From contig BPQB01000052.1 in NCBI GenBank assembly GCA_019973155.2, positions 124,001-188,000 on the forward strand: a stretch of 64,000 nucleotides of DNA, written 5' to 3'. A model generated the notes under the pieces. That model searched no databases. It was given only the letters and a program-made list of their open reading frames with translations, and was not told where the DNA came from. How positions within the stretch are numbered: the stretch's first letter is position 1; each line of letters starts with the position of its first letter. Of this stretch, positions 1-43,200 are shown in pieces. This DNA comes from Phanerochaete sordida (Eukaryota; Basidiomycota; Agaricomycetes; Polyporales; Phanerochaetaceae). A program made the translations under genes and the position numbers.

Positions 1-1920
1 CGGGACGCGAGAACGGGACGCGTCCGAGGGCCACCTGAGCATCAGTCTCCCGCGAAAGATGACTCGGCGGCCATAGAGCCCGACAACTCGCCTGCCGAGG
101 CGCAGGAACGGGTCAGGGCTTTCCAGCCAAAAGCAGCGTTCTTCGTCGAGAAGGACGAGGATGCGCATCCGGTCAGATCGGCGTTCGCCGTCACCAGGGC
201 CGAGGCCCGCCGAGCCAGAGGCGAAGAAGACCCGCGGCCTCAGCAGAGACAAAGGCCGCAAAGGAAACGCAAAGATACGTGCGCCGCTGCAGAGCTGAAC
301 GTCAGCACAGGGGGACCGAATGGTGGTACGACGGAGCCGAACGAGTCGCGGGACCTCTTCGAGAAGAAGACCGACTGGGAAGGAGAGAACGCTCCCCCGC
401 GAGCTCCCCTTTTGCATCTGGAGGAGGACCGCAAGAGGGCCTTCGTAGAGGGATATCGAGTGGATCCTTTCTTCAAGTCAAGATGGGAGGATCCGAACGC
501 GCACGTCGATTCCTGGTACGCAGGGAAGCGCTTCTTCCGGGATCAGGACGGTCTCCTGTTCTTCCGCGATGCCGACTTCCAGCCCAAGCTTTGCGTGCCT
601 GCTTCGTTGAGAGCCGCCGTGTTGAAGGCACTGCACGAATCCCCCTTCGACTCGGCGCACGCGGGACCGGAGAGGCTCTGGAAGAAGGCGTCAGATATCT
701 TCTACTGGCCGAGGATGCGCAAGGACCTGAAGCGGTTCTGCGCTACCTGCGACGTATGCCAGAAGGCCAAGCCCCGAAACTTCTCGCGTTTCGGAAGGCT
801 GCTACCGAACGCCATCGCATCCCGACCGTTCGAATCGATCTCCATGGACCTGATTGTGGGCTTACCCATGTCAGAAGGCTTCAACGCCATTTGGGTTGTA
901 GTCGATAGACTCACCAAATATGTCCTGTTCGTACCCACTACATCCGGGCTGTCGGCGGAAGGATTCGCCGAGCTGTTCGTCAAGAACGTGGCCTGCAAAT
1001 TCGGCATACCCGAATACATCATCACGGATCGTGACCCGAGATGGACCAGCGAGTTCTGGAGACACGTCGCCCGTTACCTGCGGATCGAGATGTGGTTCTC
1101 ATCTTCCCATCACCCGCAGCATGACGGGCAGACCGAAGTGGCCAACAAGCAGCTGGAGGTGATGCTGCGAAGCTACGTCTCGCAAGATCGGACACAGTGG
1201 GCTGCTTGGCTGCACCTACTGCAACACGCCCACAACAGCCTGACGGCGGGATCAACCGGATACAGCCTGTACTATCTCCTCTTCGGGTTTCAACCCCGAG
1301 ACGGCCTCGTCGGATGGCGCCACAGGGAGGACATCGCGCGGGCACCCCTATCAGAAGCGGTCAAAGCGTTCGTGGATGATCTGGAGTCGCACCGAGAGAA
1401 CGCGCGGCTCACGCTCGCCAAAGCGCAAGACGCGCAAGCTCGAGCGTACAACCGAGGGCGCCGTGCTCTCGTTTTCCGTCCCGGAGACTTGGTGCTGATC
1501 AACCCCCATTCGATTGAATGGAAGGAAGCGAAGGGCGAGGGCGTCAAACTGGGCCCGAAGTTCGTGGGACCGTTCCCCATCCAGGAACGAGTGGGCGAGA
1601 ACACATACCGGCTGGACCTGCCGGACTCCTTCGGCGGATCGTGCGTGCTGAACATCCAGCACTTGTCGGCCTACCAGGCTTCGCCCCCCGAATGGGGCGA
1701 AAGGGCCACTCTCGACACGTCGCGCAAGGACGTGGAACCCAGCGAGGAGTTCCAGGTCGAGAAGATCGTGGGTCATCGATTCAATAGGAAATCGGGCGCT
1801 ATGCAATTCCTGGTCAGATGGGCGGGCCTCACGCCGCTTTACGACTCCTGGCTATCCGCTAAAGACTTGCGGAACGCGCCGCGCCCCCTTTACGACTACA
1901 AGCTATTGAAACAGCTCTAG
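1..1920 (+). CDS. Pol polyprotein C-terminal part: integrase with chromodomain (5' end outside window)
   Basis: The frame is open from base 1 to the stop at 1918-1920, so this is the C-terminal 639 residues of a longer polyprotein. After a charged linker there is an HHCC zinc-binding region (two His near bases 630-660, paired Cys in CATCDVC), then a DDE integrase core: first Asp in SMDLIVG, second in ITDRDPRW, and the Glu in HDGQTEVANKQLE. A GPF/Y-like segment (KFVGPFPI) follows, then a chromodomain of about 50 residues (VEKIVGHRF to YDSWLSAKDL). Integrase inserts the cDNA; the chromodomain probably steers it to modified histones. No stops or frameshifts are seen in the visible part. Confidence 0.93.
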   Translation, partial: RDARTGRVRGPPEHQSPAKDDSAAIEPDNSPAEAQERVRAFQPKAAFFVEKDEDAHPVRSAFAVTRAEARRARGEEDPRPQQRQRPQRKRKDTCAAAELNVSTGGPNGGTTEPNESRDLFEKKTDWEGENAPPRAPLLHLEEDRKRAFVEGYRVDPFFKSRWEDPNAHVDSWYAGKRFFRDQDGLLFFRDADFQPKLCVPASLRAAVLKALHESPFDSAHAGPERLWKKASDIFYWPRMRKDLKRFCATCDVCQKAKPRNFSRFGRLLPNAIASRPFESISMDLIVGLPMSEGFNAIWVVVDRLTKYVLFVPTTSGLSAEGFAELFVKNVACKFGIPEYIITDRDPRWTSEFWRHVARYLRIEMWFSSSHHPQHDGQTEVANKQLEVMLRSYVSQDRTQWAAWLHLLQHAHNSLTAGSTGYSLYYLLFGFQPRDGLVGWRHREDIARAPLSEAVKAFVDDLESHRENARLTLAKAQDAQARAYNRGRRALVFRPGDLVLINPHSIEWKEAKGEGVKLGPKFVGPFPIQERVGENTYRLDLPDSFGGSCVLNIQHLSAYQASPPEWGERATLDTSRKDVEPSEEFQVEKIVGHRFNRKSGAMQFLVRWAGLTPLYDSWLSAKDLRNAPRPLYDYKLLKQL

Positions 1921-5220: not shown

Positions 5221-7587
5221 CACTAGCTGCTACCCGTGCTTACGCACGGGTTTGAAGATGGCATGTAAAGACGTTCGCAAAGGTTGGGCAAGTCTCACGA
5301 TCAGGCCACGATAATGATGATTAGACGTTCAGAGTACAACGATACTATTAACTCGAGGTGTTACGCGAGCAGTAAGCTCTGCTCAACCTGGCTTTCAGCC
5401 GGAGGAGTACCCGTGGCCTCGGACATCGCCGTTTGTGAACCCATGCGCGCACCTACACGTCCAGCGCCACCCCAATGCAGGCACCTGGCGAGGGCCCCGA
5501 AACGCATCCCCGCTATGAGCGCCACGCAATAAGAGCGTGCGAGTCTCAGCCATTGGACTGTGACCGACTGCTGCAAGCTGTGCAGCAAGGTTCAGAGTCC
5601 ACAAACGACCCTGGCAGGATGCGCGTCTCGGAAGTAGAAGCCTGGGCTCATGAAGACACCGTCACTGAGGATGGATGTGCCAGAAAATGTTGCCGAGGGC
5701 ACGGGTTGCAGCCGAGAAAGGTGCGCGCCGAAGTAGCGTCATGCTCGACGACTTCCCGCCGACGCTGGAAGCCAGGGATTCGCGGCGCTGCTGGCGTTTT
5801 GCGCCCAAGCGCAGCATTTCTGAATCGGCCTTGGTGAACCACGTGCGGAAGGCTGGTATCGCGGTGTTCGTTAGAGTGTCCGCGCGCTCATCGACTGTCG
5901 TGATCAATGTTCGCCGAAGCCGCCAGTCGTGCCTATCGAGGTAGTGAAGATCGTGTCAGTCTTGCTCTACAGTAACGACAGGCAAGACGTCAAACTTGGG
6001 ATTGCGCATGCCAAGATCAGCGAACCGAGCCCGCCTGTCTCAAAGATCATTGCCGAAAAGTCTAGTGTAATATCAGAGAGCATTGACCTGAGGGACGCAG
6101 TTGCAGAGCTCACGGGCGACGTACTTGCGGCGAGGATGGGCGGGACGTACCTCACTGTTGACGTTGAGAATCTCGCAAGCGCAAAGTGGTAGCATGGCGA
6201 TAGGATAACGCTGCACAGATGTGGAATCGAGCGTGGCACACACCGGCAAGCATGGACGATAGAACATCGCACCTGGGAGCTGAGGCCGTCCCGAACACGG
6301 TTTGTCCTTGCCGTTATCGCCTTCTTGCAAGCATGAGCGGCAGTAGTGGGCACGAACCGGGTAGCGGTATATACAATAGTCGACGCGGCGGTGCAGGAGA
6401 CCGGGTTCTGCCCCCTGCGTCATTAGCGGAAGCTTCGCACGAAACGGGTCAGCTCACCGACTTGAACTGCCCTCTGTGGCAGAGTACTCGCATTACCACT
6501 GCCATCTGCTCTGTTGGCCCGTACGCTTATCAGCTGGCGCGGGCACGCACGAAGCTCCGCCCCCGCTGAACGATAACGTAGCTGGACTCGCTGCCACAGC
6601 TGTGGTTTCTCAAACCACTGAAGTTCGGATGCGAATCGGACGGGGAACGGAGAACCGATTGAGGGTGTTGCAGGAGCTCCCATGATAAGTCTTGGGCCCC
6701 ACACCTCGAATGCCGGAGAGTGGATTTTGAGAAGGCGGTTCCGACGGCGGCTGCTGGGTAGTGTGCTTGCGAGCGATGGTCGAGAGTCACGCTATCATGT
6801 TATTGAGAGGTGTCTGCAGTTAAACTGAGAAGTCCGGGCAAGCATAGAGCAGAACTACACACCTTTCAATGGCGCTTTTCCTGGCCTGGCACTCGCACTG
6901 CCATCGCCCACTGCTATCTCGAGGTAACTGAGCCATTGTCGACAGTCCTCCAAGACCTCGAGACCGCTGCCAAGGTGGTTATGGCCTGCTAACGCTATGG
7001 CGAGGATCAGCTCATCTAATAATATTGGAAAGCCACGGGGATTCACGTACCGAAGGAAGTCGGTAACCAAATGGTAAAGGAGCGCAAAGGGCTCATGACT
7101 CATGGTGAGGTCCCGTCACAAACGTCCTTGATGTGACAGAGGAAACCTGTGAAAGAATGAATGCCGGGACGTGAAGCTGGAGAATAAGTTGTGAGGCTTG
7201 TACGCCGACAGGGCTGCGAGACAGGCTGGAGAGTATCGCCTCGCGTGCAAGGGTAAAGAAGTGCAGGGATAAAACGCATGTATTCCTCCGAGTACTGAAC
7301 AGAATCGGACAGACTTGGGACAGACGCCGCTATACATGAGTGCACGGCGTTGGTGTCAGGAGAAGCTAATGTCAAGGGCGAGGCGAGGGGTAGTCGTCGT
7401 GGTCTGCGGGCAAGTGCGAGGACGCGACCGAGAAGCTTCCGCCAGCCCGCTTGAATGACGTCACGGAATCGCTGCGAGGGGAAGCTGGAGAATCACGTGC
7501 CAGTTTCGACGAACAACCAATCCCGTTGCATCTTGTATCGCTCGCATGCATCACATGACGTGTGTTCGAGGTGAATTATATATTGAA
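5221..7587. other. Gene-poor stretch in front of the NADAR array
   Basis: Only short open frames occur on both strands (the longest about 130 codons), without recognisable domains or a convincing set of splice sites. It may hold further decayed array members, but I could not align any part of it with the intact genes. Confidence 0.4.
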
Positions 7588-7960
7588 TACAAGCTCTTGC
7601 CAGCGTAGCCAAATCTCGCCGATGGCATCCGCAAAATTTGGTCGCCGCTCGCGGCGCTGGAGAGGCGACGCGCATGCGCCGCACACAGCGATGCGACTAG
7701 TAAGACGGGGGCATTGCCATGATGGACGTAGCCTTCGAGTCCAAGTTCACGTAAGACGCGTGGCTGAAGGCGCTATCCAACACGGGCGAACGCGAGCTGG
7801 CAGAGTACAATCTAGTGGGTTACGCGGTGCGTTCAGTCGTGTGTTGACTCTACACAAGTTGACCCGTTTTTGGGGCTGCGGCGCGGATGAAAACGGAAGG
7901 AATGAGCTCAGCAAGGCACTCGTACAACCTGGAGACAAGTTGCGCAGGTGAGAAAGCAGA
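7588..7960 (+). pseudogene. Decayed NADAR gene (last two exons)
   Basis: The stretch aligns throughout with bases 12830-13200 of the intact TM-NADAR gene. Shared are the segment around AAG-CTC-TTG-CCA-GCG, the ATGATGGACGT region, the AACACGGGCGA region, the intron, and the final exon with the FWGCG and GRNEL-like codons. It is broken by in-frame TAG (about 7605) and TAA (about 7751) and by small deletions. The nearest relative is the gene at 12390 rather than the adjacent gene at 8669, so array copies have been reshuffled. Confidence 0.85.
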
Positions 7961-8668: not shown

Positions 8669-10413
8669 ATGTCTCGCCCTCCCAGTCGTGGAAGAGGCAA
8701 CTCTGTCGACGGCGTTCTTCGCGTCGCCATAGCTTTGTCGGATGACGTCGCTGGGCTACTCGGCATACCACTAATCCACCCCGCGGCAAATCTCGCAAAG
8801 GAAGTCCTCGACATTATCAAGGTACGTTTCTATTCACTAATTTCGGTAATGCCCCCAATATTCCCCCCTCGCCTTATCCGGGTACTCGCATAGGATGTAC
8901 GGTCAGAGAAACTCGAATGGTGCCAGTTAGCAAGACGCTGCATCAGGTTCCTCAACGACATCAGCAAGGCTTTGAGCGGAAATCGGGAACAGGCACCGAG
9001 ATCGCTCATGCAGGACGTTAATACTTTGACTAGGTAAGGCATCCATTGACGGCCATAGTTATTATTCATCAACTAACTTGGCCGAAGTATTTTGGAAAGT
9101 ATGCACGACGACGTCTTAGGCCAGGCTGGGCGGAGCTGGTTTAAAAAGATGCGAACAAGAGCTGAAACGAAGGGCCTTATAGTGCGCTACAACCGCGAGA
9201 TCGACGACGCCATCAAGTCCTTTCAAGTGACCACCCTGATACACATTCGCGTTTCCCCCTCCGATTCGTCCCCGTACAGTGCTCCTGCTCTGGATCGACG
9301 TTCTTCCTCTACCGGCAATCGATTCATGACTCGGACCCCTTCAGCATTACGGTCTACTGCTTCATTGGATTTCACAGCAGCCAGAACTCAGGATGTAGGG
9401 CGAGACAGGTCACTGAGGCCGTCAAGCTCACAGACATTTGCTCCAGCATCTCAATCACGAGACGAGGTGCGTCACATGTTATACTTTCTACAACTTGTCC
9501 ATCATCTCTACGCACTAGCTCGCTGTCCGCGATACTTTGCCAGAGGAACGCGGACGACGCATGGAACGGCACCATAAAAAGTTCGGTGCAACATCAAGGC
9601 ATTCAAGCTCCCAGAGTCATGCAGCACAGTCCGGACGCAGCATGAGCATAGCCAGTCGCTGGAAGTGGTGGAAAAAGACCAAGAAGACCCCGATCCTGTT
9701 CTACGAGAGAGGAAAGCCATACTATGAGTATGTTATCCACTCGGGTGCCGGAAGGATGTACATGACCAGAGGTTGGACTGCAGGTTCACCAACTTTGCGG
9801 CATTTCCAGTGTGCTACCAGGATAGACTGTATCCAACATCAGAACACTGTGCGTGGCGTTACCTGTGCGGAGTGCTGCTAGCGATTCTGATTGTTCTCAG
9901 TATATCAAGCTCTCAAATTTATTGGCCGCCGCTCGGACCTCGCAGAGCGGATCAGGAACGCTCCAAGTGCTCGTCAGGCCCTCATAGAAGCGACCAACAA
10001 TCGACAAAAGCAACGCAGCGACTGGTACCACGTTAACCTCAACATGATGGACCGGGCTCTCCATGCCAAGTTCACTCAGCATGCAGAGCTGCGTGACATG
10101 CTGCTCGGAACAGGAGATAGGTTGCTCATTGAGAACAGTCCTGTAAGCGAAGCAGTGCCGCGGATGGTGCTGACGATGACCAAATTGCCCACAGGTCGAC
10201 GACTTCTGGGGCACCGGGAAGAGTGGTCGAGGGCAAAACGAGCTGGGCAAGGCTCTCATGCGTCTCAGGAACCAGCTACGCCACGAGGCGGAGAAGAATG
10301 CTGTTATGACTGGCGTGAACGCGCACGTCTTCTCGAACCAGACCCGACGCAGAAGCCAATCCCGTGGAGAAGAGAAAGTCGGTACACTCATCTTTGGCTG
10401 CAGCGTACGCTGA
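8669..10413 (+). CDS. Fusion protein: MLKL-NTD-like helical bundle plus NADAR domain
   Basis: Spliced model: 8669-8821, 8894-9033, 9088-9466, 9546-9727, 9784-9848, 9901-10142, 10195-10413 (459 aa). Residues 10-145 form a helical bundle: an amphipathic first helix ending KEVLDIIK, then EKLEWCQLARRC, then RSWFKKMRTRAETKG and a helix ending DDAIKSFQ. This is the pattern of the MLKL N-terminal / fungal cell-death adaptor domain. A Ser/Arg-rich linker with a basic WKWWKKTKK patch follows. Residues 273-416 are NADAR: PILFYERGKPYYE, YPTSEH, RSDWYHVN, KFTQH, FWGTG and GQNELGKALM. NADAR proteins bind and cleave ADP-ribosyl or ribosyl-type linkages; the bundle in relatives controls cell death or oligomerisation. 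The combined role here is inferred. All introns have good donors and keep phase. Confidence 0.85.
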
Positions 10414-10597
10414 CGATTCCTCGCAGCCGCTGCCAACCGTACCCCTGCAGCCACATCCTGACATTGTCCCACAGAGCAGAGCGGCTAGCGTGGAGCCACA
10501 ACATGGAAAGCGAAGGCGTGGCGCAAACGCGCCTTCTGTCTACCGAAAACGTGAGCAATCGGCCTGAGATCTGTCTCGTGGTGACGATGATTAACGA

Positions 10598-11327
10598 ATG
10601 TCCGATTGTCTAGTCAAGGGCCGCTTCTCTTCGACTCCTGAGGTCATAGAGGATCCAATCTACTTCTACGACAGGGATCAGCCATATTACGAGTGAGTGT
10701 AGACTCATCGTGGCGAGGATATTGCTAATGATAATCCAAGATTCACGAACGTCTCGCCTCATGAAGTCTGGTATGACGGAAAATTGTATCCTACCCCTGA
10801 GCATTGTAAGCGCGATCTCTTTCATCCAGCCTGCACGTCTGCTCACAAAACACAGTGTTTCAAGCTCAAAGATTCATGCAAACTGCGCCCGATATAGCGG
10901 AGCATATACGAATGCAGCCTTCATCCAAGTTGGCCCTCTCAGAGGCACGGCGTCTCCGTGAGCACTGCCGGAGCGACTGGTTCAAAGTCAATCGCGAGTG
11001 TATGGACCTAGCCCTGGAGGCAAAGTTCACGCAGCACTCGAGCCTGCACCAGTTGCTTCTGTCAACCGGCGACCGCGGTCTCGTCGAGGCGAGCCCTGTA
11101 AGTGCACCTCCGTCATGCATATCTGGGGTCAACGCTGAGACATCGCGCGGCAGGTGGATCCCTTCTGGGGATATGGCAGGGACAAGAAGGGCAAAAACGA
11201 GCTGGGGAAGGCCCTGATGAGACTCAGAGCGCAGCTGCGCGCAGTCGAAGAAGCGCAGAGACAGGGGCAGGGACAGGTGGTTCCCGTGGGCCGTGGACGT
11301 TCCCGAAGCACTAGCACTGTCCGCTGA
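10598..11327 (+). CDS. NADAR-domain protein, minimal form
   Basis: Spliced model: 10598-10692, 10741-10805, 10856-11097, 11154-11327 (191 aa). The protein is almost only a NADAR domain: IYFYDRDQPYYE, YPTPEH, FQAQRF, CRSDWFKVN, KFTQH, LLSTGDRGLVEASP, FWGYG and KNELGKALMRLR, with a short Arg/Gln-rich tail. Exons of 65 and 242 nt are the same lengths as in every other array member. It lies 184 bp downstream of the helical-bundle fusion gene on the same strand and lacks any N-terminal extension. Tyr replaces the usual Leu in the first motif. Likely a cytosolic or nuclear ADP-ribose-handling enzyme; substrate unknown. Confidence 0.87.
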
Positions 11328-12389: not shown

Positions 12390-13223
12390 ATGACGAGCCT
12401 CCCGCCATTCTCCCTGTCTGACGTCTCAGCGCTGGAGCCATGGATGCTCGCGTCGGGCATTGTGGTATGCATCGCGCTCGTGACGGCGCTGCAGCTCCAA
12501 GGTGCGTCTGTCCCCGCACGCGCGCGCAGTCCCGCTCACAAATGCCAGACCCGAAGCCGCGGAGACGGCGCGAGCGGAGGGAGAGGAGAGGGGCACCATG
12601 GGATCCAAACGCGCCGATTCTGTTCTACCACCGAGATGACCCGTATTATGAGTGCGTACGCTGCAGAGCATGGAGGGCGGGGCTGACACTGTACGTGCAG
12701 GTTTACGAACTTCTCGCCCCACGCCGTCGAGTTTGAGGGGAAGATCTATCCGACGTCTGAGCATCGTGCGCCCCACATCTATCTTGCTCATTCATCTCCC
12801 CGACACGTCCGCGTTAGTTTTTCAGGCCCACAAGTTCTTGCCAGCGCGTCCCGACCTCGCAGATCGCATCCGCAGAACGCGGTCGCCACGCGCGGCACTC
12901 GAAGAAGCGACGCGCTTGCGACGCGTACAGCGACGCGACTGGTACGATGTGAACATTGCAATGATGGACGTGGTCCTCGAGCGCAAGTTCACGCAGGACG
13001 CACGGCTGAAGGCGCTCCTCCTCGACACGGGCGAGCGCGAACTGGTCGAGGATAGCCCGGTGGGTGGCCTACGCAGAACGTTTGGTTTCGTACTGATGTT
13101 ACTTAGGTCGACTCGTTCTGGGGATGTGGCGCGGACGGACATGGGAGGAACGAGCTTGGAAAAGCGCTCGTGCGGCTCAGAGACAAGTTACGCAGACGAG
13201 AGAGCAGGAGTCGACAGCGATGA
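12390..13223 (+). CDS. NADAR protein with N-terminal hydrophobic (membrane) segment
   Basis: Spliced model: 12390-12501, 12549-12651, 12701-12765, 12818-13059, 13107-13223 (212 aa). Residues 19-36 (MLASGIVVCIALVTALQL) form one hydrophobic helix followed by an Arg-rich stretch (KPRRRRERRERR). That looks like a signal anchor with the NADAR domain on the cytosolic side by the positive-inside rule. NADAR motifs: PILFYHRDDPYYE, YPTSEH, RRDWYDVN, KFTQD, TGERELVEDSP, FWGCGADGHGRNELGKALV. The TM exon is separate from the NADAR exons, so the anchor was probably gained by exon joining. Decayed copies of this gene lie at 5118 and 7588. Confidence 0.86.
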
Positions 13224-13570: not shown

Positions 13571-14084
13571 ATGCACTACGCTGAGCATGGCCGAGCTGTC
13601 CTGAGTGGGCCTCACGCCAAGAGAAACAACCTGGTCAATTTCGCCTTCGATGCAACCACTTTGATCAATCAAGTGTCTACCCTGATATCCTTCCCGCCCG
13701 TGACCGTCGCCACCAACATCCTGCTGGCCGTTTTGAGGGCTGTACAAGTGCGTAACCAGTTGTCGTTAGTACACTCTAGGCGGGAGCTAAGAGGCGTCTG
13801 TAGGCGCTGTCTCGTGAGAGGGAGGCATGGTGCGGTTTGGCGAAGCGCTGTGCCGAGTACATCTACCTCATCCAAAATACCCAGCGCAATAGGACGGCCA
13901 TTCCGGAAGACATCCGAAGGTACATCTCTGACTCTGAGAGGTTATTTACTGTCTACGATCGTCGACCATCTTGAAGCACTCAGCCAAGTGATACAGCACG
14001 CTGCGCAGAATAGAGGAGAGCATAGGCCATATCGCCAGAGCTTCGCGTCTGCGGAAACTGTTTCGCACCACGGAGGTTACGTGA
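13571..14084 (+). pseudogene. Stand-alone MLKL-NTD-like helical-bundle gene, interrupted by a stop
   Basis: Model: 13571-13747, 13804-13940, 13997-14084 (133 codons before a stop). Exon 1 gives FDATTLINQVSTLIS...LAVLRAVQ, exon 2 gives EAWCGLAKRCAEYIYLI, and exon 3 gives LRRIEESIGHIARAS, the same helical bundle and same intron positions as in the gene at 8669. An in-frame TGA at 14082-14084 cuts the last helix; after it the frame continues with LFHTDIDRAQGLL, the expected helix, to about 14208. It was therefore longer once. It may still make a truncated protein. The next gene, at 14314, is a NADAR gene on the same strand, so the two could be halves of a former fusion gene. Confidence 0.7.
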
Positions 14085-14313
14085 AAAATTCAGCTGTTCC
14101 ATACTGATATAGACCGTGCCCAAGGCTTGCTGCAGCTTGCCTTGTCGTTGCACACTGTGTGCGCAGCTGGAACTGCTGCAAACGATGCGCCAGTCCCGCA
14201 GGCAGAGGTGAGCACTCTTGTTTGGGGCTGGTCGGCGCGCGCTGAGACATGGGCAGCCTGCCGCCAGTTTAACTGTCACGAACCTCCTCGGAGCCGCTGT
14301 CGAGTTCACTGCC

Positions 14314-15119
14314 ATGGCTGCGATTACGGCGGTGGTCCTGCCGCCCGCTATTGCTGCCGCGTCCGTCAGTGTGTGCAGTCATGTGTGGAGTAGTCCAGGG
14401 AGCTGATCACAGGTCGCAGTCTGGCCGGTACGCGCGGTGTACCGCACGCTGGTGGGAAGCTCAAACCGCCCTTCGCCTGCTAGGGCGCAGCGGACGGTGC
14501 GGTGGACGGAGGCGCCAGTGATGTCTTGCAACAGGAACGAGCCATACTATGAGTGTGTTTGTCCCAGCTTGTGCAGTCCCGTAGATGCTCATCTTTACCA
14601 CAGGCTCACAAACGGTGCCCCGTATACCGCCACGTTTGAGGAGCGTGTCTACCCGACCGCCGAGCACCGTGCGTCTGAACGCGCTTCGTCGTTCGCCTTG
14701 GTGCTGACACGCACCAGTATTTCAGTCCTTCCGCTTCTACGGGACACGCCCAGACCTTGCGGAGCGCATCCGCACCGCGACCTCGCCGCGCGCTGCGCGT
14801 GAGGAGGCGGAGCGACAACGCAGGGACCAGCGCCATAACTGGAGCAAGGAGCAGCTCGAGATGATGGACTGCGTCCTCGCACACAAGTTCGCGCAGCACG
14901 CTGCGCTTGCAAACGTGCTCCTCGGCACGGGCTACCGGTATCTTGTGCTGAACAGCTATGTGAGTACATGGGCAGTGCAACCAAAATCCACGAGTGAGTG
15001 ATGACGGGGATCAGGACGACGCATTTTGGGGCTGTGGACCCAAGGGCCAAGGGCGTAATGAGCTCGGCAAGGCGTTGATGCGGCTGAGGGACAAGCTGCG
15101 AGGCAGTGGGCAGGTTTGA
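14314..15119 (+). CDS. Divergent NADAR protein with N-terminal hydrophobic segment
   Basis: Spliced model: 14314-14364, 14413-14552, 14604-14668, 14718-14959, 15015-15119 (200 aa). The N-terminus MAAITAVVLPPAIAAAS followed by VAVWPV is hydrophobic and may be a membrane anchor or signal. The NADAR core keeps YPTAEH, LLGTGYR, FWGCG and GRNELGKALMRLRDKLR, and the standard 65- and 242-nt exons. It is the most divergent copy: the first motif reads PVMSCNRNEPYYE instead of PILFY.R..PYYE, FTNF is replaced by LTNG, and VEDSP by VLNSY. Ligand specificity may have changed or been lost. Exon 1 is the least certain part; open frame continues upstream of the ATG. Confidence 0.75.
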
Positions 15120-16092: not shown

Positions 16093-16884
16093 ATGGACCC
16101 CGTGATAATTGGAGGCACTATTGCCGGCGCCCTCGCCCTTGCTGCCGCTGTGGGGGCGTATATTGGTGAGCGGTTGCGTTTGAAGAGCATGGAACGAGTA
16201 CGTTGACAGGTGGCAGTCGTGCCGCGGCGGAACGGCGGATACAAGCACCTCAAGAAGCCCGCGCGGGGACACACTGGCCCGATCCTGTTCTACGACCGCG
16301 GAGACCCGTACTACGAGTGTGTTGCACCCTGCAAGGAGGTGCACGGACGCTGATCAGGTCCAGGTTCACGAACTTCTCACCACATGCCATCGAGTTCGAG
16401 GGCAAGATCTACCCGTCGTCCGAGCACCGTGCGTTCCCTCCCCGCCTATCCTCGCGCTCGCTGACGCCGGCTCCAGTGTTCCAGGCGCACAAGTTCCTCG
16501 GCACGCGGCCAGACATTGCGGAGCGCGTGCGCGCCGCACCGTCGCCGCGCGCGGCGCTCGAGGAGGCGACGCGCCAGCGCGCGCACGTGCGCCCCGGCTG
16601 GCGCCAGGTGAACATCGCGAGCATGGACACCGTGCTTGCGCTCAAGTTCGCGCAGCACGCGGACCTTCGCCAGCTCTTGCTCGACACTGGAAATCGTGTG
16701 CTCGTCGAGGATAGCCCTGTGCGTACCTCCTACTGCCCTCTTGGGGTCATTACTGACGAGGAGTTAGGTGGATTCGTTCTGGGGCTGCGGCGCAGACGGG
16801 AAGGGGAGGAACGAGCTGGGAAAGGCCTTGATGCGGCTGCGCGACAAGCTGCGCCAGCAGGCGAGGCTGGGTGGGCGGCTGTGA
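16093..16884 (+). CDS. NADAR protein with N-terminal hydrophobic (membrane) segment
   Basis: Spliced model: 16093-16165, 16217-16316, 16364-16428, 16477-16718, 16768-16884 (198 aa). Residues 4-24 (VIIGGTIAGALALAAAVGAY) are a clear single hydrophobic helix followed by basic residues (PRRNGGYKHLKK), an N-terminal anchor. NADAR motifs: GPILFYDRGDPYYE, YPSSEH, FQAHKF, RPGWRQVN, KFAQH, LLDTGNRVLVEDSP, FWGCGADGKGRNELGKALMRLRDKLR. Same exon lengths as the gene at 12390, including the 117-nt last exon. Convergent with the two-NADAR gene that follows on the minus strand. Confidence 0.87.
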
Positions 16885-17501: not shown

Positions 17502-20117
17502 TCAATGGGAGGTGTCTGGGGAGCCGTCGAGCGGCGGCTGCCAGGTGTCTGTCTGACAAGCGTGGGCGGGCGACGAACGGGCGTCGGAGAGCGGTGCGGC
17601 GTCGGCTCGGCGGGCCTGTCGTGCGGAGGTGGGGTCGCACGTCGTGGTAGCGATCCCGGGGGGCTCGTCTGCGCCACTACACTTATGATGTTCCTGCGTA
17701 TGCTGTCCGGCACAGGCGTCCGCAAACGGCGGATGATAGACAGTCGGCGCCAGCGCCGCCGTTGAACGCTGCCCTGCGTCCCGTTGGTGCGCGCAAGGCG
17801 GGAAAGCGTTCGCTGGCGATGCCTCATGAGCATCTTCCTCGCGGAAGCGCGTCCTCAGCCGCATCAGAACCTTTCCAAGTTCGTTGCGGCCCTTCATGTC
17901 CTTGCCGTAGCCCCAGAACGCGTCGACCTGCCAGTCAGATCAGCAGCACATCGAACACGCGACCGATGAACACTCACCGGGTTCGCTTGTACGAGCTCGT
18001 GATTGCCCGTCGAGAGGAGTAGCGTGCGAAGCTCCGGGTGCTGGATGAATTTCGCCTCAATGACATCCTCCATGACACTGATATTGATTTTAAACCAGTC
18101 TGATCGTTGATTCGGGCGCAGCCGCGTCGCCTCGGCTCGTGCAGCGCGCGACGTTGGTTGCAGGCGAATATGTTCGGCGAGCGCATCCGCATGGCCCTGA
18201 AACTTGTGCGCCTGGAACACTATTGCGAACACTAATCAGCCGTCTTCTCTGGCGAGAAAAACAACAAGCTACTGACGGTGCTCAGAAGTAGGATACGACT
18301 TCCCGCGGTGCAACATCGGGTGTGGGGAGGTGTTCATGAACCTGCAATGCGATGAAGCATCTTGGAATTACCGAAGATGAGCCCGTGCTTACTCAAAATA
18401 CGGCTGGTATCGCTCGTAAAAGTAAATTGTCGACAACGGTGAATGCGCTGTCGAGAAAACAGTATTGGACAATGATCCATAGTCGCCTTCAAGTTCAACA
18501 TAACCCAAACTCACAGGGAGAATCGACGTAGACAGCGTTGTGAGGAACCAACGGTAATGATGGTAGAGGCCGTTGCATCTGGTATCTGCCGCCCGTCTGC
18601 AGTATTTGAGATTATCGATCGCAAAGACAGATCACTACGGAGAGTGCGTACCGGGGTATTTCCGACATAGGGGATCGGGTTCTGTGAGGCAGCCTCGTCG
18701 ACGGACACGCTGGCACGGAATGAGCCCGCGCCCTCGGTCATATCTGCGCGCAATCGGTCGCGGGCGCGCATAAGGGCCTTGCCAAGCTCGTTCCGCCCGT
18801 GTTTGTCCTTGCCGTAGCCCCAGAAGGCGTCGATCTGCAGAAATACTATCTATGGGTATCCTTGCTACGCGGGCACAGACCGGCACTTACGGGGCTCGCG
18901 TACACAAGTTCGCGGTTGCCCGTGCTCAGGAGCATGTCACGGAGAAACGGGTGCTGCGTGAACTTCGCGGCCACGACGTCCTCCATCACGCTGATGTTGA
19001 CCTCGAACCAGTCGCTGCGCTGCAGACGCCGCAGTTGAGTCGCCTCGCTCAAGGCTTCGCGCGAGGTCGGTGCGGTTCGGATGCGCTCTGCAAGATCGGG
19101 GCGTTTGCTGATGAATTTCTGGGCTTGGAACACTGCGATGTGTCAGGTTCCGGTCGAGGGCACAGATAAGGGGAGGATGTCACGTACAGTGCTCAGACGT
19201 CGGGTACTCCTTGCCCTCGAACATGACGGGATACGCCGCGAAGTTCGTGAACCTATTGCGCTAGCGTTAGCGCGCGGAAGCTGCAAACAGGGCGCGACGT
19301 ACTCGTAGAATGGCTGGTCCTTCTCGTAGAATAGGAGCGGACTTTCGTCAAGCTGTGGCCGATTCTTCTTGCGCTCGGGCATTGGGCGCGTCATAAGCTC
19401 TGTCGAGCTGTCTACGCTGTGCCGCTCTTCGTCGTCCACCTTCTTGTCCTTCTTCTTCCACCCGAACCGTGAGGCAATGCTGAAGCTCTTTTTGCGTTCG
19501 CTGCTGTCGCGCTTGGCCCGCTGCTCTGCGTCATCCCGTTCACGCCGCTGGGGCTCGAGCTGCGCCTGTTCCTTGGAATCCTTGCCACGCTTTCTCTGCT
19601 CCAGCTCTCCGGCCTCACGGTTCTGCCGCACGCGGTCTTCCTCGTCGCGCTGCCTCCGTTCTTCGTCACGCTTTCTCCGCTCCTCCTCACCTCTCTGCCT
19701 CTGCTCCACCTTCGTTCGCTCCTGTTCCCTCCGCTCCGACGCTCCCTCCCGCTCTACGTGTCCGTTGCCGTGCGCCGGCTGGTCGTTTCGCATGTTGCTG
19801 TAGGCTTCGCCGCGCTGTCTCTGGTCCTCTGCGTCGCGCGCCTTGAGATCCCTTGCGCTGCTCGCTCGCTGCGCACGATGTTTGGCGTACTCTTCCTGTA
19901 CTCTCTGCGTCTCCGCCACCTCCACCACCTCCGACTGTGCATGCCGTTCGGCCTCTCGCTGCGCGAGCTCTTGTATCAGCTTCTTCAGCATCTTCCGTGT
20001 ACTCTGCGTGCTCTGCTTTTTTCGGTGCGCCTCGAGCCGTTCTGCCTCTTCAGCCTGGTGCTGTGCGTGTCCGCGTGCGATCCAGTCTTCGACGCGGTGT
20101 ATAGGGATGTCTACCAG
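17502..20117 (-). CDS. Coiled-coil protein with two NADAR domains
   Basis: Exons (minus): from about 20117 to 19303, then 19252-19188, 19132-18891, 18834-18652, 18596-18515, 18447-18393, 18341-18277, 18219-17978, 17927-17502. The first 200 residues are a highly charged Glu/Arg/Gln coiled coil. NADAR 1 runs from PLLFYEKDQPFYE to NELGKALMRARDRLR. A 60-residue Ser/Pro linker joins it to NADAR 2, from IYFYERYQPYFE to GRNELGKVLMRLR. The join between the two (introns 18651-18597 and 18514-18448) has GTACGC and GTGAGT donors and keeps phase exactly. Without it the second domain has no start codon. The first in-frame ATG is at 19991; true 5' exons are unresolved. The tail after 17830 is uncertain, since another frame (17330-17833) looks like a better proline-rich tail. 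Confidence 0.75.
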
Positions 20118-21564: not shown

Positions 21565-22274
21565 CTATGGCGGCAGCGGCATGGGAAAGGCTTCCGCAGA
21601 GCTAGTGAGAGTCTGCGTGCGCCCCAACAGACCGTGCATGCAGAAAGCTAGGATCAGGAACTGCGTCGCGCGATCGATCGCGAGGTCAAATTGGCCCACG
21701 ATGTCCTGCTCGCCCTTCCAGCTGAGCAGTCGGCGATGCCAGGACCCTGTGCGTACGCCTTCCACATAACGGTGTATCTCTCGCAGCTTGCTGGAATGAG
21801 CCCGTCAGACCAGCTCATGGCCCTCTCAGGAATGAAGGCTACGACACCTTTCGAAGTCCGCGATGTGTTGCTGCACAAACGTCGGTATCTTCGCTCTGCG
21901 GCCGCGCAGTGTGCTTTCGATGAGGCCCATGTACGACGCACAGCGGCCTGAGAGCTCGGTACATGCTTCCTTGTTGCGCCGAAGTGTCTACGGTCCTCTA
22001 TTAGCCTGTCCCGGCCGCTCTGGGTTTTGACGACTCTGCGCACCTTAACAATTTCCAATATTTTTGTGAGGATGCCGGCTGCAAGAGTGATAGGTGGAAA
22101 TGACGCGAGCGCGGCCACTTCGTTGATGAGCGCGGCGGTGTCGGCCGCCATGCTGAACAGGTCACGGCCCAAGGGATGTAGCGACTCCTGAACTTGAACA
22201 GGAGGTGCTGGATCCACTGCTGTCGCTGCGTAATAATAAATCGCGTTCCTGCGAGGTTCGTGGAGAACTTGCAT
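21565..22274 (-). CDS. Stand-alone MLKL-NTD-like helical-bundle protein
   Basis: Spliced model (minus): 22274-22044, 21987-21848, 21790-21565 (198 aa). It contains AADTAALINEVAALASFPP, then ILTKILEIVK, RRNKEACTELSGRCASYM, and a last pair of helices with GSWHRRLLSWKGEQ and DLAIDRATQF. The SW-x-x-R motif, exon 2 length (140 nt) and intron phases equal those of the bundle part of the gene at 8669. No NADAR domain follows; the protein ends after a short tail. The neighbouring NADAR gene ends only 43 bp upstream on the same strand. By analogy with fungal and animal relatives it could be an oligomerising or membrane-active cell-death module, but that is inferred from family resemblance. Start chosen as first ATG; an inner ATG at 22151 is also possible. 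Confidence 0.72.
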
Positions 22275-22317: not shown

Positions 22318-23167
22318 TCAACACCTACAGCTCCGCTTTGCTGAGCCTGTCAATTGCGAGTCAGTTGGCCTGAACCTTTCAGCACAACGCCCTCCTCCAA
22401 CCTGGGCGGAACTTGGGAGCAGTTCACTGCGCAAGGTGTTGCGGACCCGCATCAAGGCCTTCCCGAGCTCGTTTCGCCCGCGCCCGTCCGGACCATGTCC
22501 CCAGAAATTGTCGGTCTGTCGATACATTAGTCGAGGCAATCCAGGCGTGGATGAGACTCACTGGGTTTGCCATGACAATTTCACGCTGCCCCGTGCTGAG
22601 GAGCGTGTCGCGGAGGTCCAGGTGCTGCGTGAACTTCGCGACGAGGACGTGCTCTATGAGCGTGGTGCTCACAGCGCACCAGTCTTCGCGCCACTCGGGG
22701 CGCAGCCGCATTGCCGCGCGCACGGCGGCGCGCGCCGTCGGCTGGGCGCGGATGTGTTTTGCGAGAGCGGGATGCGCATCGAGGAACTTGAGAGCCTGAA
22801 ACACTGCAGAGCGTCAGCAGCGCGGCATGCCTGGCGTGGAGAGGGCACGCACGGTGCTCGGCGGTCGCGTACTCCGTACCCTTGTGCTCGACAGGGTACT
22901 CGGCGAAGTTGGCGAATCTGCCGCAGGCCATCAGTTGGCCGTGAAACATGTGACGCAGGGGTACGCACGCTGAGTATGGTAGCTTCTCGTCGTAAAAATA
23001 TATAGGCTCTTGGCTAAGCTGCGGCTCAGAGTCTGTTTGAGGGCTTGAGAGCACCCCGGGTCAATGTGCGAACCGCTCTTGCTGGTCGTCATATCTCACC
23101 GATTATCGGTACCATGCTGTATAAGCATATCATAATGCTCTTTTGCGTGTCTTGGTTCTGGGACCAT
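22318..23167 (-). CDS. NADAR-domain protein
   Basis: Spliced model (minus): 23167-23100, 23043-22969, 22917-22853, 22803-22562, 22515-22318 (215 aa). The short N-terminus MVPEPRHAKEHYDMLIQHG comes from a first exon whose splice to the second keeps phase. NADAR motifs: PIYFYDEKLPYSA, YATAEH, FQALKF, REDWCAVS, KFTQHLDL, LLSTGQREIVMANP, FWGHGPDGRGRNELGKALMRVR. Divergent points are Ser-Ala for Tyr-Glu at the end of the first motif and Asn for Asp in the ANP motif. A 35-residue basic tail follows. It reads toward the stand-alone helical-bundle gene, 43 bp away. Confidence 0.84.
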
Positions 23168-29954: not shown

Positions 29955-31744
29955 ATGTGCGGGAGGTTTGCGCTTGGGATCCCGGTGCGTCGCCTCTTCT
30001 TCCTTGCTCAGAACTAGTCCTATCCATCCCCTTACGTTCTCTCCTCCACTTGTTCACTTCCTCACACGCCCCCGCAGCACTACGAGATCCAGGCACTGGA
30101 CGGGTATGCCGTAGACGTCGGCGAGTGGGTGGGCCAGGCGCACTTCGTGCCTCGATTCAACGTCGCGCCACGCTCGAACGCGCCGGTGCTGCGCCGCGCG
30201 GACGGAGGACGGGCCCCACCTGAGGAACGCGGCGCGAGTGGCACTCAACAGCGCCAAGACGCGTCCGGGAGCCGCGCTGCCGCTGCGAACGCAGAGGCTT
30301 CTAATGAAGAAGCCCACGGAGACGGAAACGAAAGCGCAGCAGACGGCGCACAGGTCGACGCATGCGTGCTGCACACAATGAAATGGGGCCTCGTCCCGCA
30401 CTGGAGCAAGTACGAAGACCTGACGCTGAACACGATCAACGCGCGCGCCGAGGCGCTGCAGGACGGCAGTGGAATGTGGAAGAGCCTCCGTGGCACGCGC
30501 CGGTGTGCCGTGCCTGTGCAGGGGTGCGTCTCGTCCTTGCTGAGCCTTCATGTATGCACCAGAGAACGCTAACGAGCGTGAACAGGTACTACGAGTGGCT
30601 GAAGAAGGGCCGCGAACGCCTGCCTCACTACACGCGCCGTGGCGACGGCAGGCTCATGCTCCTTGCGGGGCTCTGGGACGTCGCCACGCTCGAAGGTGCG
30701 TCCGCCCTTCTTCTTCCCCTCAGCCGCCAACACACCCAGATTTGCACATGCTGACGCACGCACAGGCCAACCGGACCCTCTGTACACCTTCACGATCGTC
30801 ACGACGGACGCATGTGCAGACATGGCGTGGCTACACGACCGGCAGCCCGTGATCCTGCGCACCGACGCTGCGCTGCGCGCGTGGCTCGGGCCGCGCGCCT
30901 GGGACGCGTCGCTCTCTTCGCTGCTTGAGCCGTACGATGGCGAGCCGCTGACGTGGTGCGTGCCCCTTGCCCTCCGTAGTGTGTCGTTGCGGCACGGTAG
31001 AAGTGCTGACGGAACGCGCAGCTACCCGGTCCCGAAGGAGGTGGGCAAGGTTGGCGAGGAGAGCCCAACGTTCGTGCAGCCCCTCGCGGGCCGCCGCGAC
31101 GGCATCGAGGCCATGTTCGCGCGCCAAACCGCCAAAGCCACGCCGTCGCCGAGCCGCTCGCAGAAGCTCAAGGTGGAGGCGATGAGCCCGAGTCCGGGGA
31201 AGAGCCCGGGAAAGAGCCCCGGCAAGGACGCGGTCAAGCGCGAGCGGAGCCCGTCGCCCGCGCACCAGCCAAAGGCGGGCCCGTCGAGCACAAGGGCCAG
31301 TCCGAAAAAGCCCAAGACGGAAGCGAAGGACGAGGACGGCACCGTGGAGGAAGTCATCGACCTTTATCGCGACGACGCAGCAGACGAGGACTACGCGATT
31401 GCCAGCAGGACTAAAGCTGAGCCGAAGCTCGAGAAGATGAATACCTGGGAGGACGACGAGCTGGAGATTGTCGACGTGCCCGCGTCGAGCAGCAAGAGTC
31501 CGGGGAAATCGGTGAGAGCCCTCCGCCTCTCCCGTAGGAGCATTCGTTCACAAACAAGGTATGTAGCCGGCGCAGGGCACATCAGCCAAGAAGGTAAGTC
31601 GGTGCCCCCAGGCTGTTATGGCATTCACGCTTATGGGTGCTTTAGCTCAAACCACAGGAGCCGGCGAAGTCTCCAACGAAGAAGCCTGCGAAATCGAAGA
31701 AGGCAGACAAGTCGAAGATCACGGCGTACTTTGGCAAATCATGA
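29955..31744 (+). CDS. SRAP/HMCES-family DNA-protein crosslink protein
   Basis: Spliced model: 29955-29984, 30078-30523, 30586-30695, 30766-30955, 31022-31511, 31576-31593, 31646-31744 (460 aa). SRAP proteins cap abasic sites in single-stranded DNA by a covalent link through Cys2. All key residues are present: MCGRF at the N-terminus (Cys2 after Met removal), FNVAP, MKWGLVPHW, INAR (Asn131), YYEW (Glu162) and LHDRQPVIL (His219). An insert of about 55 disordered residues lies between the first strands. The tail holds the conserved block DGIEAMFARQTAK, Ser/Pro/Lys repeats, an EVIDLY and an LEIVDV segment (possible SUMO-binding), and ends SKITAYFGKS, which resembles a PCNA-interacting box. A six-codon micro-exon is part of the tail. 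Confidence 0.92.
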
Positions 31745-31961
31745 CACCGTGACCATCGAACCCCCCGAACCACTTCCTTGTATCGTTAATTTGTGTGTAT
31801 GACAAACATGTATTTCTTGGATCTGTACATTAGACGACGTTACAAGTATACGTTCTCTGGGATACACAGGAAGCTAGGGCTACATGGTCTATCATGATGT
31901 CGAACATGAAGTGGAAAAGAAACAGGTATCGCGAGTACTCAAGCTCTCACCAAAACTCAAA

Positions 31962-40263: not shown

Positions 40264-43200
40264 CTGTCGGGAAATGCCGGGACGCGTAGCCGGAGCGCGT
40301 CGCGCTGGTCCGTGCGCGCGCGTCAACTCGCGGACTCGACAGGACGCAGACTCCTACCCGCGATTTGGACGGCTGCAGTGCGTATATGACTCTCTCTGCG
40401 CTGCGATCCAGTCGCTTTGCCCGCTCCATCTCCGCGGCCCTCTCCTCTGCCCTCGATGGAATCGCTCTCCGCTGCGAACAGGCCCACCATCCGAGCACTG
40501 GCACACCTCTGCTCGGGTCAAAGCTGCAGTCGGAGTGCGCCGTCCTTCCTACCAAGGCTCGCCAGCCTCGCACCGCCCTCCATCGTCGGCCGCTCCTCGC
40601 CGTACGCCCAGCGGCCTCATCAACTGAATCATTTCATTGCTGGTTCAACCTTCCTTGCCATGCATCACCGTGCATATACTCCCCTCGAGGCTTTCAGCAC
40701 TGTGCGATGAGTCGACAACAAGGCCTAAGGGTCGGCAGCCCGTGCACAGCTTGATGCCTTCCTGGACTCAGGACATAGGCATATGTAAGTCCGTACGCGT
40801 CATTGAAGCCTCGTAGACATACTTACAAAGCCATCGCGATTGCTGTACGGCAGACTCCATTCTTTTCGTTATCTCATGCGACCGACGCGAACTCTGCGCC
40901 TAGGATTGCGTACTGTACCCTCAGGCCAAAACCTATGGGGTCGCGGGCCTCCCTCGGCTTGAGCGAGGACCAGTTGTTATGGCTCCGTGCTTCCGACCCG
41001 AGCCAAGTCATAGCAATTAGCCTATACACCAAGGTGCGCACGACCGCCCGCATCCACGCAAGACAGTCAGCTGAGCATCGAGATGCATATACAAACTTTC
41101 GACCGAGAAGACGCCCCCCAAGCTCTCTCTTCAGGTGAAAATTCTCCCTATCAGACGCTATGGAGGTGCACGAAGCTAGAAATGAAGTCGTATGATGACA
41201 ATCGGGATTCAATAACGCTCCAGGTGCGTGTACATCGCGTACCCCACATACAGGATACTAACGTGATGTCCGTAGACACGACATAACGTGACGAAGGTAC
41301 GATTCACCACAAACCCATGGGTCTGGGTTGTCGAAAGCACGTCAACTCGTTGAGACGAGTCTTGCTGCAGAACGTCCGATAAGTGCACCGAGCCTCTTTG
41401 CCTTCGCCTCACAGTAAGCCCTCCTTCTCTCGTATTCGTTACTTATATCCCTACAACTCATGATGTGCCCAGGACTTCGACGAACTCGTGAAGACGCTCC
41501 ATGGATCTGATGGCGCTTGAGCTCCTCCTGACGAGGACCAAGCCGGCCTCCCACTCTACGATGTCCATGTGTAGGACCAGCGCAGCTTCAATCGCGGAGG
41601 CTATACAAGAAGAGCTTCCATCGCGACTTCTCCTTGCCCGAATGCCTGCCATGGCAGTCGCGCGATCGTCCATCCCGTCCTCGATTTCCGCTCGAGGCCG
41701 CATCGCGCCGCGCCCGTCGAGATTTGGGACCGGTCGCAGAATCTGAATGTTGCCAGAGCTGCCATAGGAGAGGACGTTGGCTTCCATCTGTCGGCGCCCA
41801 TCAGCTGAGGTTGCGTGCACGCTGAGGTAAGTCCTTCGGTCTGATGCACCTGAAGCAGCGCTCAAGCTATCTGTACTGGCAGAGCACTCGTACACCGGAG
41901 TCCCCACGCGTGCGACTGTCGGGACGGTTCGCGCAGGTACCGGCTCGCGGCGACGGTCGCGGACGCCCCCAAGCGGATGACGAACACGCCTTTCCCGTCG
42001 CACTTGCACCAACGTCACGACGTCGCTTCATGACATGGATCGCCTTGTTCACCAACGCTGATTTGAGCGCACATTACCGGCACCTCGGTCGGACGCGCTC
42101 GTCAGGGCACCGTCGCCGATAGGCGGGCACCGGCCTCGAGGCTGCATGTTTTCGGGGCTTGTTTGGTTGCTTCATGAGCAGCTAGCCGCTGTTGATATCC
42201 CAGGCGAGGAGATTGTCCAGAGGTACGCTGCCCACGCTAACGCGATGCTTTTGGGCTAACGTTCCGCAAACAGCCGTTACTTCAACGCCGGCTCAAGGTT
42301 CCTCTCAATCGCGCCGATTGTTCCATCGATGAAGGCCTATTCATTTATGCCCGGACAGAATACACTACCTACCGCTCAATGTCACGCTGGAGCGCGAAGA
42401 TGTGCCGCAGATTGGTGTTCACAGTCAGTATTCTCGTCCATCTTGCCCTGCGCTTCAGTGCTGGCTGCTTGCAGGGCCGGCGACGCATAGCCTCTGCATG
42501 TCGTGCCAGTGCTCTAGAACGTCGAGGCCCACGTTCTCTGCGCCGCCAAGGTCGTCTGACCGCGGCAGGGCGATAGCAACCTGCAATCTCAGCATAGAAT
42601 TCACCTTCGCGTGAGTTTCATAGTGCGTTCCTTGCCCCGCTGTACCGCTGAAATGGGTCCAGCCGCAGCAGATCGGTCGGCACACAACGATGTGTGCTGC
42701 TGGTGCTCGGCGCTCCCGCCAAGCTCGGCGATGCTCCCGACATCGTGCTCCACGTCGACGCCGACAATAGGAGAACCTGTTTGTGCCATCTGTTACTGCT
42801 CTTGGGCGGCTTGTCGTTCCAGCACAGAACCTGCGTTCCCGTGTGAGTATTTCTGCGTGCCTTAGGCTATCGCTCTTGGCTAACACGCCCTAGCGCACGG
42901 GATCCTCAGTCTGGCTGCAGAACGATCGCCCAGAATCTTGCGGTGACGGTCCTGACGCGACGCGGCCGTTCATGATGCGCTTGGAGGGCTTCTCGCGGAA
43001 GAAGATCCATTGCCGCGGTGCCAACTCGTAGCTGTTCGAGGGATCTTCTCGGCGCCTCTGTTCAATACACAGATTCTGGTAATTGCAGAGGACGGGATTT
43101 CCCTCGAGCGTGCCCTGCGGCCAGTCGGCGGGCTGCGCCACGTTAGGGCGAAGTGGACGTGACGGGCAGGTGAAGCGACAGGTTTCGCGACGGGCATCGT

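Follow-up and report, generated by a model that had tools for sequence, protein, structure and literature searches.

RESULTS

The window gene

The window analysed here is the whole 64,000-nucleotide stretch of Phanerochaete sordida DNA, bases 124001-188000 of contig C52 (234,441 bp) in a genome of 40.8 Mb and 222 contigs; positions refer to the window unless the contig is named. For the published YK-624 draft (41.2 Mb) genes were predicted by BRAKER2 with the fungus option and curated manually; the reads described are genomic, and RNA is unmentioned (PMC8530024). The most likely gene at 8669..11327 (+) consists of 12 exons and would encode 684 amino acids, with one stop codon, at the end; all 11 introns are of the GT-AG type and 48-72 nt long. 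As read from the DNA, the product most likely consists, in this order, of an MLKL-like four-helix bundle, a Ser/Arg-rich linker and two NADAR domains. The parts of the gene are:

8669-8821, 8894-9033, 9088-9466, 9519-9727, 9784-9848, 9901-10142, 10195-10377 (+): exons 1-7
10427-10550, 10614-10692, 10741-10805, 10856-11097, 11154-11327 (+): exons 8-12
8702..9268 (+): predicted four-helix bundle, MLKL-N/BaMLKL-like by profile, approximately residues 12-158, in exons 1-3
9269..9686 (+): linker of approximately 120 residues, Ser 19%, Arg 15%, crossed by intron 9467-9518
9467..9518 (+): preferred intron 3, canonical, GTGCGT...CACTAG, 52 nt, in place of the originally proposed 9467-9545
9687..10284 (+): NADAR domain 1; E314, K321, E393, D398 and W401 match all five active-site residues
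10378..10426 (+): intron 7, GTCGGT...TCGCAG, holding the originally proposed stop codon 10411-10413
10655..11243 (+): NADAR domain 2; Arg (R552) at the K50 position, other four active-site residues conserved

The initial annotation had proposed a 459-aa product encoded between 8669 and 10413. Its in-phase model could be reproduced, but the stop codon and one junction had to be corrected. The stop at 10411-10413 sits in intron 10378-10426, and the gene appears to run on to 11327. The public model of a close paralogue, P0001, has two NADAR domains, and its DNA, when spliced, yields the public protein exactly. Taking into account that the joining stretch of the window gene differs from that of P0001 in few bases and that the intron itself is identical, the stop codon is regarded as intronic. 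The second correction concerns the 9466/9546 junction, which needs a GAG acceptor; we prefer the canonical 9466/9519 junction, which keeps the frame and adds 9 amino acids to the original model. The CAG acceptor (9543), two bases before the GAG, was rejected because its use breaks the frame. A canonical in-frame one-intron path is offered by approximately 9% of random gaps of this size, and for this reason we call the 9466/9519 junction likely and no more; splicing of the whole gene into a single transcript is also likely.

The N-terminal bundle

The initial annotation had proposed an MLKL-NTD/HeLo-like bundle at the N-terminus, and the bundle proved to be real but divergent. The window bundle alone scored 16.7-19.6 bits against the Pfam model MLKL_N (PF22215), under the 27-bit cut-off; in the 684-aa product the MLKL_N-like match spans residues 41-143. 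When the contig was scanned with a spliced profile aligner using a single sequence (score at least 88; best score on the reversed contig 82), eight bundles were found on C52, seven of them besides the query. A profile built from the other seven gave the window copy a score of 238 and returned the exon 1-3 boundaries proposed initially; outside the bundles, this profile scored at most 87 on the contig, and its best score on the reversed contig was 86. Leave-one-out profiles recovered 8/8 bundles with scores from 166 to 465, the local second-best scores being 47-67. All eight have two introns inside the bundle at equivalent places.

The relationship to MLKL was seen when the eight-bundle profile was compared with the PDB: the top seven matches were all MLKL N-terminal domains (E 1e-4 to 0.0016). 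Pfam MLKL_N was matched by six of the eight bundles at E up to 1, the best value being 2.2e-8. Near the N-terminus, the best 19-residue Kyte-Doolittle mean was 1.52-2.03 in 8/8 bundles, and in 7/8 this hydrophobic segment exceeded the rest of the bundle. The predicted structure of the paralogue P0039 consists of an all-helical bundle of moderate confidence and a confidently modelled NADAR; the N-terminal part has five helices (residues 6-153), with ten-residue pLDDT means of 38-75 over residues 1-150. A second P0039 model, with the window exons as extra alignment rows, was worse (mean pLDDT 57.3). A fold search with the P0039 bundle had no MLKL chain among its best 50 matches, which included vinculin tails, FAT domains and designed bundles. 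Since a row missing from a fold search excludes nothing, the identity of the bundle rests on the sequence profiles, by which it is judged to be a relative of the MLKL N-terminal domains.

The NADAR domains

The NADAR domain of the original 459-aa model is certain (PF08719, E 2.9e-35, residues 276-416; TIGR02464, 4e-33; YbiA structure 2b3w, 7e-29). In the 684-aa product PF08719 was matched in two stretches with 246.4 bits (cut-off 35.1), the second at residues 515-656, and a Pfam scan at E up to 0.05 found only NADAR and MLKL_N. The NADAR anti-phage family NF053876 gave a match of E 1.8e-21, but with 76 bits against a cut-off of 240 (459-aa model) the protein is not a member.

Active-site residues were mapped by spacing and motif onto E43, K50, E125, D130 and W133 of the Phytophthora enzyme as given in the available text of PMC11543638. 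NADAR 1 of the window gene keeps all five residues, and active-site loss was therefore rejected for this domain. The NADAR pair is under constraint: in a comparison with paralogue B (contig C52:43404-45345) over 413 codons, dS was 0.129, dN 0.052 and dN/dS 0.40. In the NADAR tree, the window gene's NADAR 1 has a short branch next to that of paralogue B. The window copy looks like a young chimera and may still hydrolyse; to judge from its intact NADAR 1, an active enzyme is as possible as a sensor role.

Evidence for a fused protein

P0039, a P. sordida protein in the public records that is 359 aa long, is identical over its full length to our model at C52:85878-87259 (-). It has Pfam matches to MLKL_N and NADAR separated by a linker of approximately 20 aa, and its intron is strong (GTGAGC...ACGCAG). 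P0040, from another source, has both domains in the same order; in the 165-residue bundle region its identity is 59%, with 96% of that region aligned. P0041 is a truncated relative of P0039 with 65% identity, consisting of the bundle tail only and a NADAR. On C52, a canonical in-frame one-intron path was present in 5/7 bundle-NADAR gaps, as compared with 9-16% of random gaps; one of the five paths follows a bundle with a stop codon, and in 2/7 gaps no such path was present. Paralogue B, which is without a bundle, is 90% identical to the window gene from position 9651 onward. This position is the NADAR coding edge, and it follows that the window NADARs share no upstream region with B. The pairing of bundle and NADAR claimed initially is thus supported by sequence profiles, by repetition in the cluster and by an independently annotated fused paralogue, and we consider it very probable that the window locus encodes one protein.

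Protein searches gave few fused relatives. Among 38 homologues of the whole 459-aa query, none was listed with MLKL_N and none matched the bundle by phmmer. A bundle-only search with a paralogue gave 2 matches. A search with the bundle profile, in which scoring was limited to the 7,996 candidates with the most words in common, gave at least 24 proteins, with both domains in P0039 and P0040. Genome searches scored only the best candidates, so that the genome-wide counts of NADARs and bundles are lower bounds. Outside C52, three bundle queries found relatives on contig C149 only, among the best candidates scored:

C149:21371-21890 (-): bundle L014, 52-64% identical, piece by piece, to the P0039 bundle

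A NADAR was not found in the 9.9 kb examined at L014, which perhaps represents a free-standing effector. Weak MLKL_N-like places on contigs C72 and C36 were not recovered by the contig-built profile at a score of at least 95. At L015 (C72, approximately 41003-43250, +) a frame weakly resembling MLKL_N is followed downstream by one that looks, by eye, protein-kinase-like, a possible MLKL-like layout.

The NADAR-bundle cluster

In an exon-by-exon search of the genome, 53 of at least 59 NADAR matches fell on C52. A spliced scan of C52:1-188000 resolved 33 NADAR domains between 10.65 and 147 kb, of which 32 are full or nearly full and one is a relic; nine of the 33, the relic included, lie in the window. 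The 32 full or nearly full domains occupy approximately 136 kb (C52:10650-147009) on both strands, many in two-domain genes, and window 1-23009 is the end of this cluster. To our knowledge, it is among the larger NADAR clusters known. Besides the gene described above, the cluster is represented in the window by the following features:

7482..7948 (+): relic of a NADAR immediately upstream of the gene, degenerate, with a frameshift and stops; score 162 over model columns 41-146
12611..13196 (+): NADAR without bundle, active site intact
13628..14153 (+): second window bundle, with one stop in its third exon; the NADAR downstream is 380 bp away
14533..15101 (+): NADAR beside the second bundle, with Arg at K50 and Leu at E125
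16279..16857 (+): NADAR without bundle, active site intact
17838..19343 (-): P0003 gene, two NADARs, grouped with those not linked to a bundle; both keep E43/K50, with Tyr and Gln at E125
21634..22157 (-): third window bundle; same-strand NADARs 2,291 bp downstream and, another, approximately 270 bp upstream
22429..23009 (-): last NADAR on the scanned part of C52, no bundle found upstream

Seven of the eight bundles sit 114-481 bp upstream of a NADAR on the same strand, whereas random placement of eight bundles gave a mean of 0.35 such neighbours and reached seven in 0/20,000 trials. The bundle at 21634-22157 seems to be an orphan; its linkage to the P0003 gene was rejected, as no open path could be seen by eye.

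Other NADAR genes of the cluster differ in their N-termini, that of P0003 being long, charged and coiled-coil-like and that of P0011 Gln-rich (by eye). A retroelement piece, Ty3-type by our reading, with Integrase_H2C2, integrase core, SH3 and chromo domains lies beside the cluster at 1-1917 (+), and an open frame coding for an SRAP (SOS response associated peptidase) domain adjoins it at 30603-31799 (+). Farther away, a WD40-repeat open frame of 348 aa was found at 58938-59981 (-); the frame 60304-61329, located 5' of it, had no Pfam match at E 0.01, and no NACHT was seen there.

Active-site changes in bundle-linked NADARs

Changes at E43 or K50 were concentrated in NADARs linked to a bundle: 8/11 bundle-linked domains were changed, as against 0/21 of the other NADARs on C52 (p 1.6e-5 by Fisher's test, which treats related domains as independent). 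Put the other way round, both residues were kept in 3/11 bundle-linked NADARs, in one of seven first NADARs and in 21/21 unlinked ones. The degenerate relic was left out of every active-site count. With a milder count, in which Arg was allowed at K50, 6/11 were changed (p 5e-4), and when one gapped row was also set aside, 5/11 (p 0.002); when the P0003 gene was counted as linked, the numbers were 8/13 versus 0/19 (p 1.2e-4). E125 was intact in 5/11 bundle-linked and 9/21 other NADARs (p 1) and thus shows no link with the bundle, and the difference in domains with all five residues intact (1/11 versus 9/21, p 0.11) was not significant.

The changes differ from one another (E to Q, A or V; K to G, R or M) and lie on separate branches of the NADAR tree. 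In six contrasts counted by hand on this tree, the change was on the bundle side in five and never the reverse (sign test approximately 0.03); the exception is the window gene. The bundle label changed nine times on the tree, with at least seven changes forced by supported branches, which indicates that the link between bundle and NADAR was gained or lost many times. The label was not clearly more clustered than shuffled labels (157/500 as low). Since bundle-linked NADARs have long branches, relaxed constraint could also explain the E43/K50 changes.

Among the database homologues, 63/68 rows without a bundle, some of which are P. sordida genes of the same cluster, read E..K; the other five comprise two true changes (Met in P0007 and Arg in P0059) and three partial or misaligned rows. 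There were three bundle-bearing rows: E43 is replaced by Ala in P0039 and in P0041, and P0040 reads E..K with D and S at E125 and D130. It was reported for the E. coli C7 NADAR, in the available text of PMC11543638, that E88A had a minor effect in vitro and failed in in vivo rescue, and that K95R still works in vitro and likewise fails in vivo. Because these mutants retained in vitro function, some of the altered copies may be active.

DISCUSSION

The initial annotation regarded the architecture as undescribed. Among the literature matches listed for NADAR together with MLKL, all were off topic by title and start of the abstract, older NADAR surveys lying outside the scope of this search, and to this extent the claim holds; the pairing itself, however, was already present in public records, in P0039 and P0040, as Pfam hits. 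Fungal NADARs have little literature among the matches listed. The comparisons below are based on PMC8530024 and on the available parts of PMC9815663, PMC12881547, PMC11543638, PMC9503650 and PMC10197012. The locus context comes from one genome, with few fused relatives, and the active-site statistics are from related domains.

Fungal death bundles are described, in the available parts of PMC9815663, PMC12881547 and PMC10197012, mainly as NLR effectors or as NLR-controlled partners. The BaMLKL domains of fungal NLRs (Wojciechowski et al. 2022, PMC9815663) are likewise N-terminal MLKL-type bundles of basidiomycete proteins, and hundreds of BaMLKL domains outside NLRs are reported in the same source. 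The partner here differs: it is a NADAR, the Pfam scan found no NACHT or NB-ARC in the 684-aa product, and the word NADAR occurs zero times in the main text of PMC9815663. The MLKL/HeLo executioners of mammals, plants and fungi, in the account available in PMC12881547, have a bundle that is related by profile, and a hydrophobic stretch near the N-terminus is found here, too; unlike MLKL proper, the 684-aa product has no kinase or pseudokinase in the Pfam scan. As to the other half, NADAR/YbiA proteins and DarT1-associated antitoxins (Schuller et al. 2023, available text of PMC11543638) differ from the window gene, where tandem NADARs stand behind a bundle. In contrast to the DarT-NADAR toxin-antitoxin systems, no DarT (PF14487) was found in this genome by an exon-by-exon search at E up to 1, and E43/K50 are altered in most bundle-linked copies. 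A single PARP was found in the genome, on contig C12; a fungal ART of another family is possible. Bundle and NADAR are thus each of known kinds, and what appears to be new is the concentration of E43/K50 changes in NADARs that are linked to a bundle.

The best reading of these data, to which we assign a probability of about 0.48, is that the window gene encodes, in one protein, a sensor of ADP-ribose and an effector that acts on membranes. ADP-ribose is bound by NADARs and removed by them from guanine, as it is by a Phytophthora NADAR (available text of PMC11543638); MLKL/HeLo bundles act on membranes after oligomerisation (PMC9815663, PMC12881547 and PMC10197012, in their available parts). 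The NADAR part would bind an ADP-ribose ligand, either nucleic acid with ADP-ribosylated guanine or a soluble derivative of ADP-ribose, and this would change the assembly state of the NADARs. The bundle would then oligomerise and act on the membrane. Most NADARs that are linked to a bundle would serve chiefly for binding, and catalytic NADARs encoded separately nearby might clear the signal. A sensor-effector role is compatible with the turnover of the cluster and with its altered active sites. What the sequences show is the domains and their order, the cluster, the recurrent pairing of bundle and NADAR, and the preferential E43/K50 change in bundle-linked domains; the ligand, oligomerisation, membrane action, killing and a role in defence or allorecognition are our inference.

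Other readings have to be weighed against this one. The fused protein might not kill at all: the bundle could serve to position an active NADAR hydrolase, by anchoring it in a membrane or by oligomerising, and this hydrolase would strip ADP-ribose from guanine or dispose of a nucleotide by-product. For the window copy such a role would agree with the intact active site of NADAR 1 and with the dN/dS of 0.40 of the NADAR pair; a eukaryotic NADAR, that of Phytophthora, does remove guanine-linked ADP-ribose according to the text available in PMC11543638, and similarly shaped helical bundles occur in many proteins of other function. We nevertheless regard an anchored hydrolase as unlikely: it would predict the opposite of the observed concentration of E43/K50 changes in bundle-linked NADARs (8/11 versus 0/21), and the best sequence relatives of the bundle are MLKL domains. 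More unlikely still, the fusions could be rapidly decaying chimeras, products of tandem duplication and recombination of which most, perhaps including the window gene, are without a selected joint function. The NADAR relic with stops just upstream, the bundle with a stop, the nine bundle-label changes without clear clustering, the long branches of bundle-linked NADARs, and the lack of a bundle in paralogue B are all of the kind that decay would leave behind. Decay does not account well for P0039 and P0041, which at 65% identity share the bundle tail, the NADAR and the change of E43 to Ala, nor for the full architecture elsewhere (P0040) and the bundle-then-NADAR order in seven of eight cases.

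The objection that there is no fusion at all seems to us improbable. It would divide the locus into a bundle gene ending at approximately 9577 and a NADAR-NADAR gene starting at approximately 9642, like the public model of P0001, which is annotated from the equivalent methionine and has no bundle upstream of its copy; the frame of exon 3, if unspliced, is indeed open to a stop at 9577. The two genes would be separated by only about 65 bp, however, and the homology to paralogue B ends at 9651. Moreover, a canonical in-frame intron joins the two parts, and the gene at 86 kb of C52 is publicly annotated as fused, with its linker of approximately 20 aa.

The sensor-effector reading can be extended to the whole cluster, although we consider the extension doubtful. 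C52 would then carry an immune or allorecognition locus in which NADARs were repeatedly captured behind a bundle, lost or altered their catalysis and now serve as sensors of ADP-ribose or ADP-ribosyl-guanine that trigger membrane attack, and the catalytic NADARs beside them could be an off-switch that erases this signal. One genome offers a natural panel of NADARs, catalytic-looking and altered, with and without a bundle, and transformants have been made in a P. sordida strain (PMC8530024). The repeated fusion of bundle and NADAR with altered sites makes a link between an ADP-ribose signal and fungal cell death directly testable. If true, the immune-locus reading would define an NLR-free class of fungal sensor-executioner.
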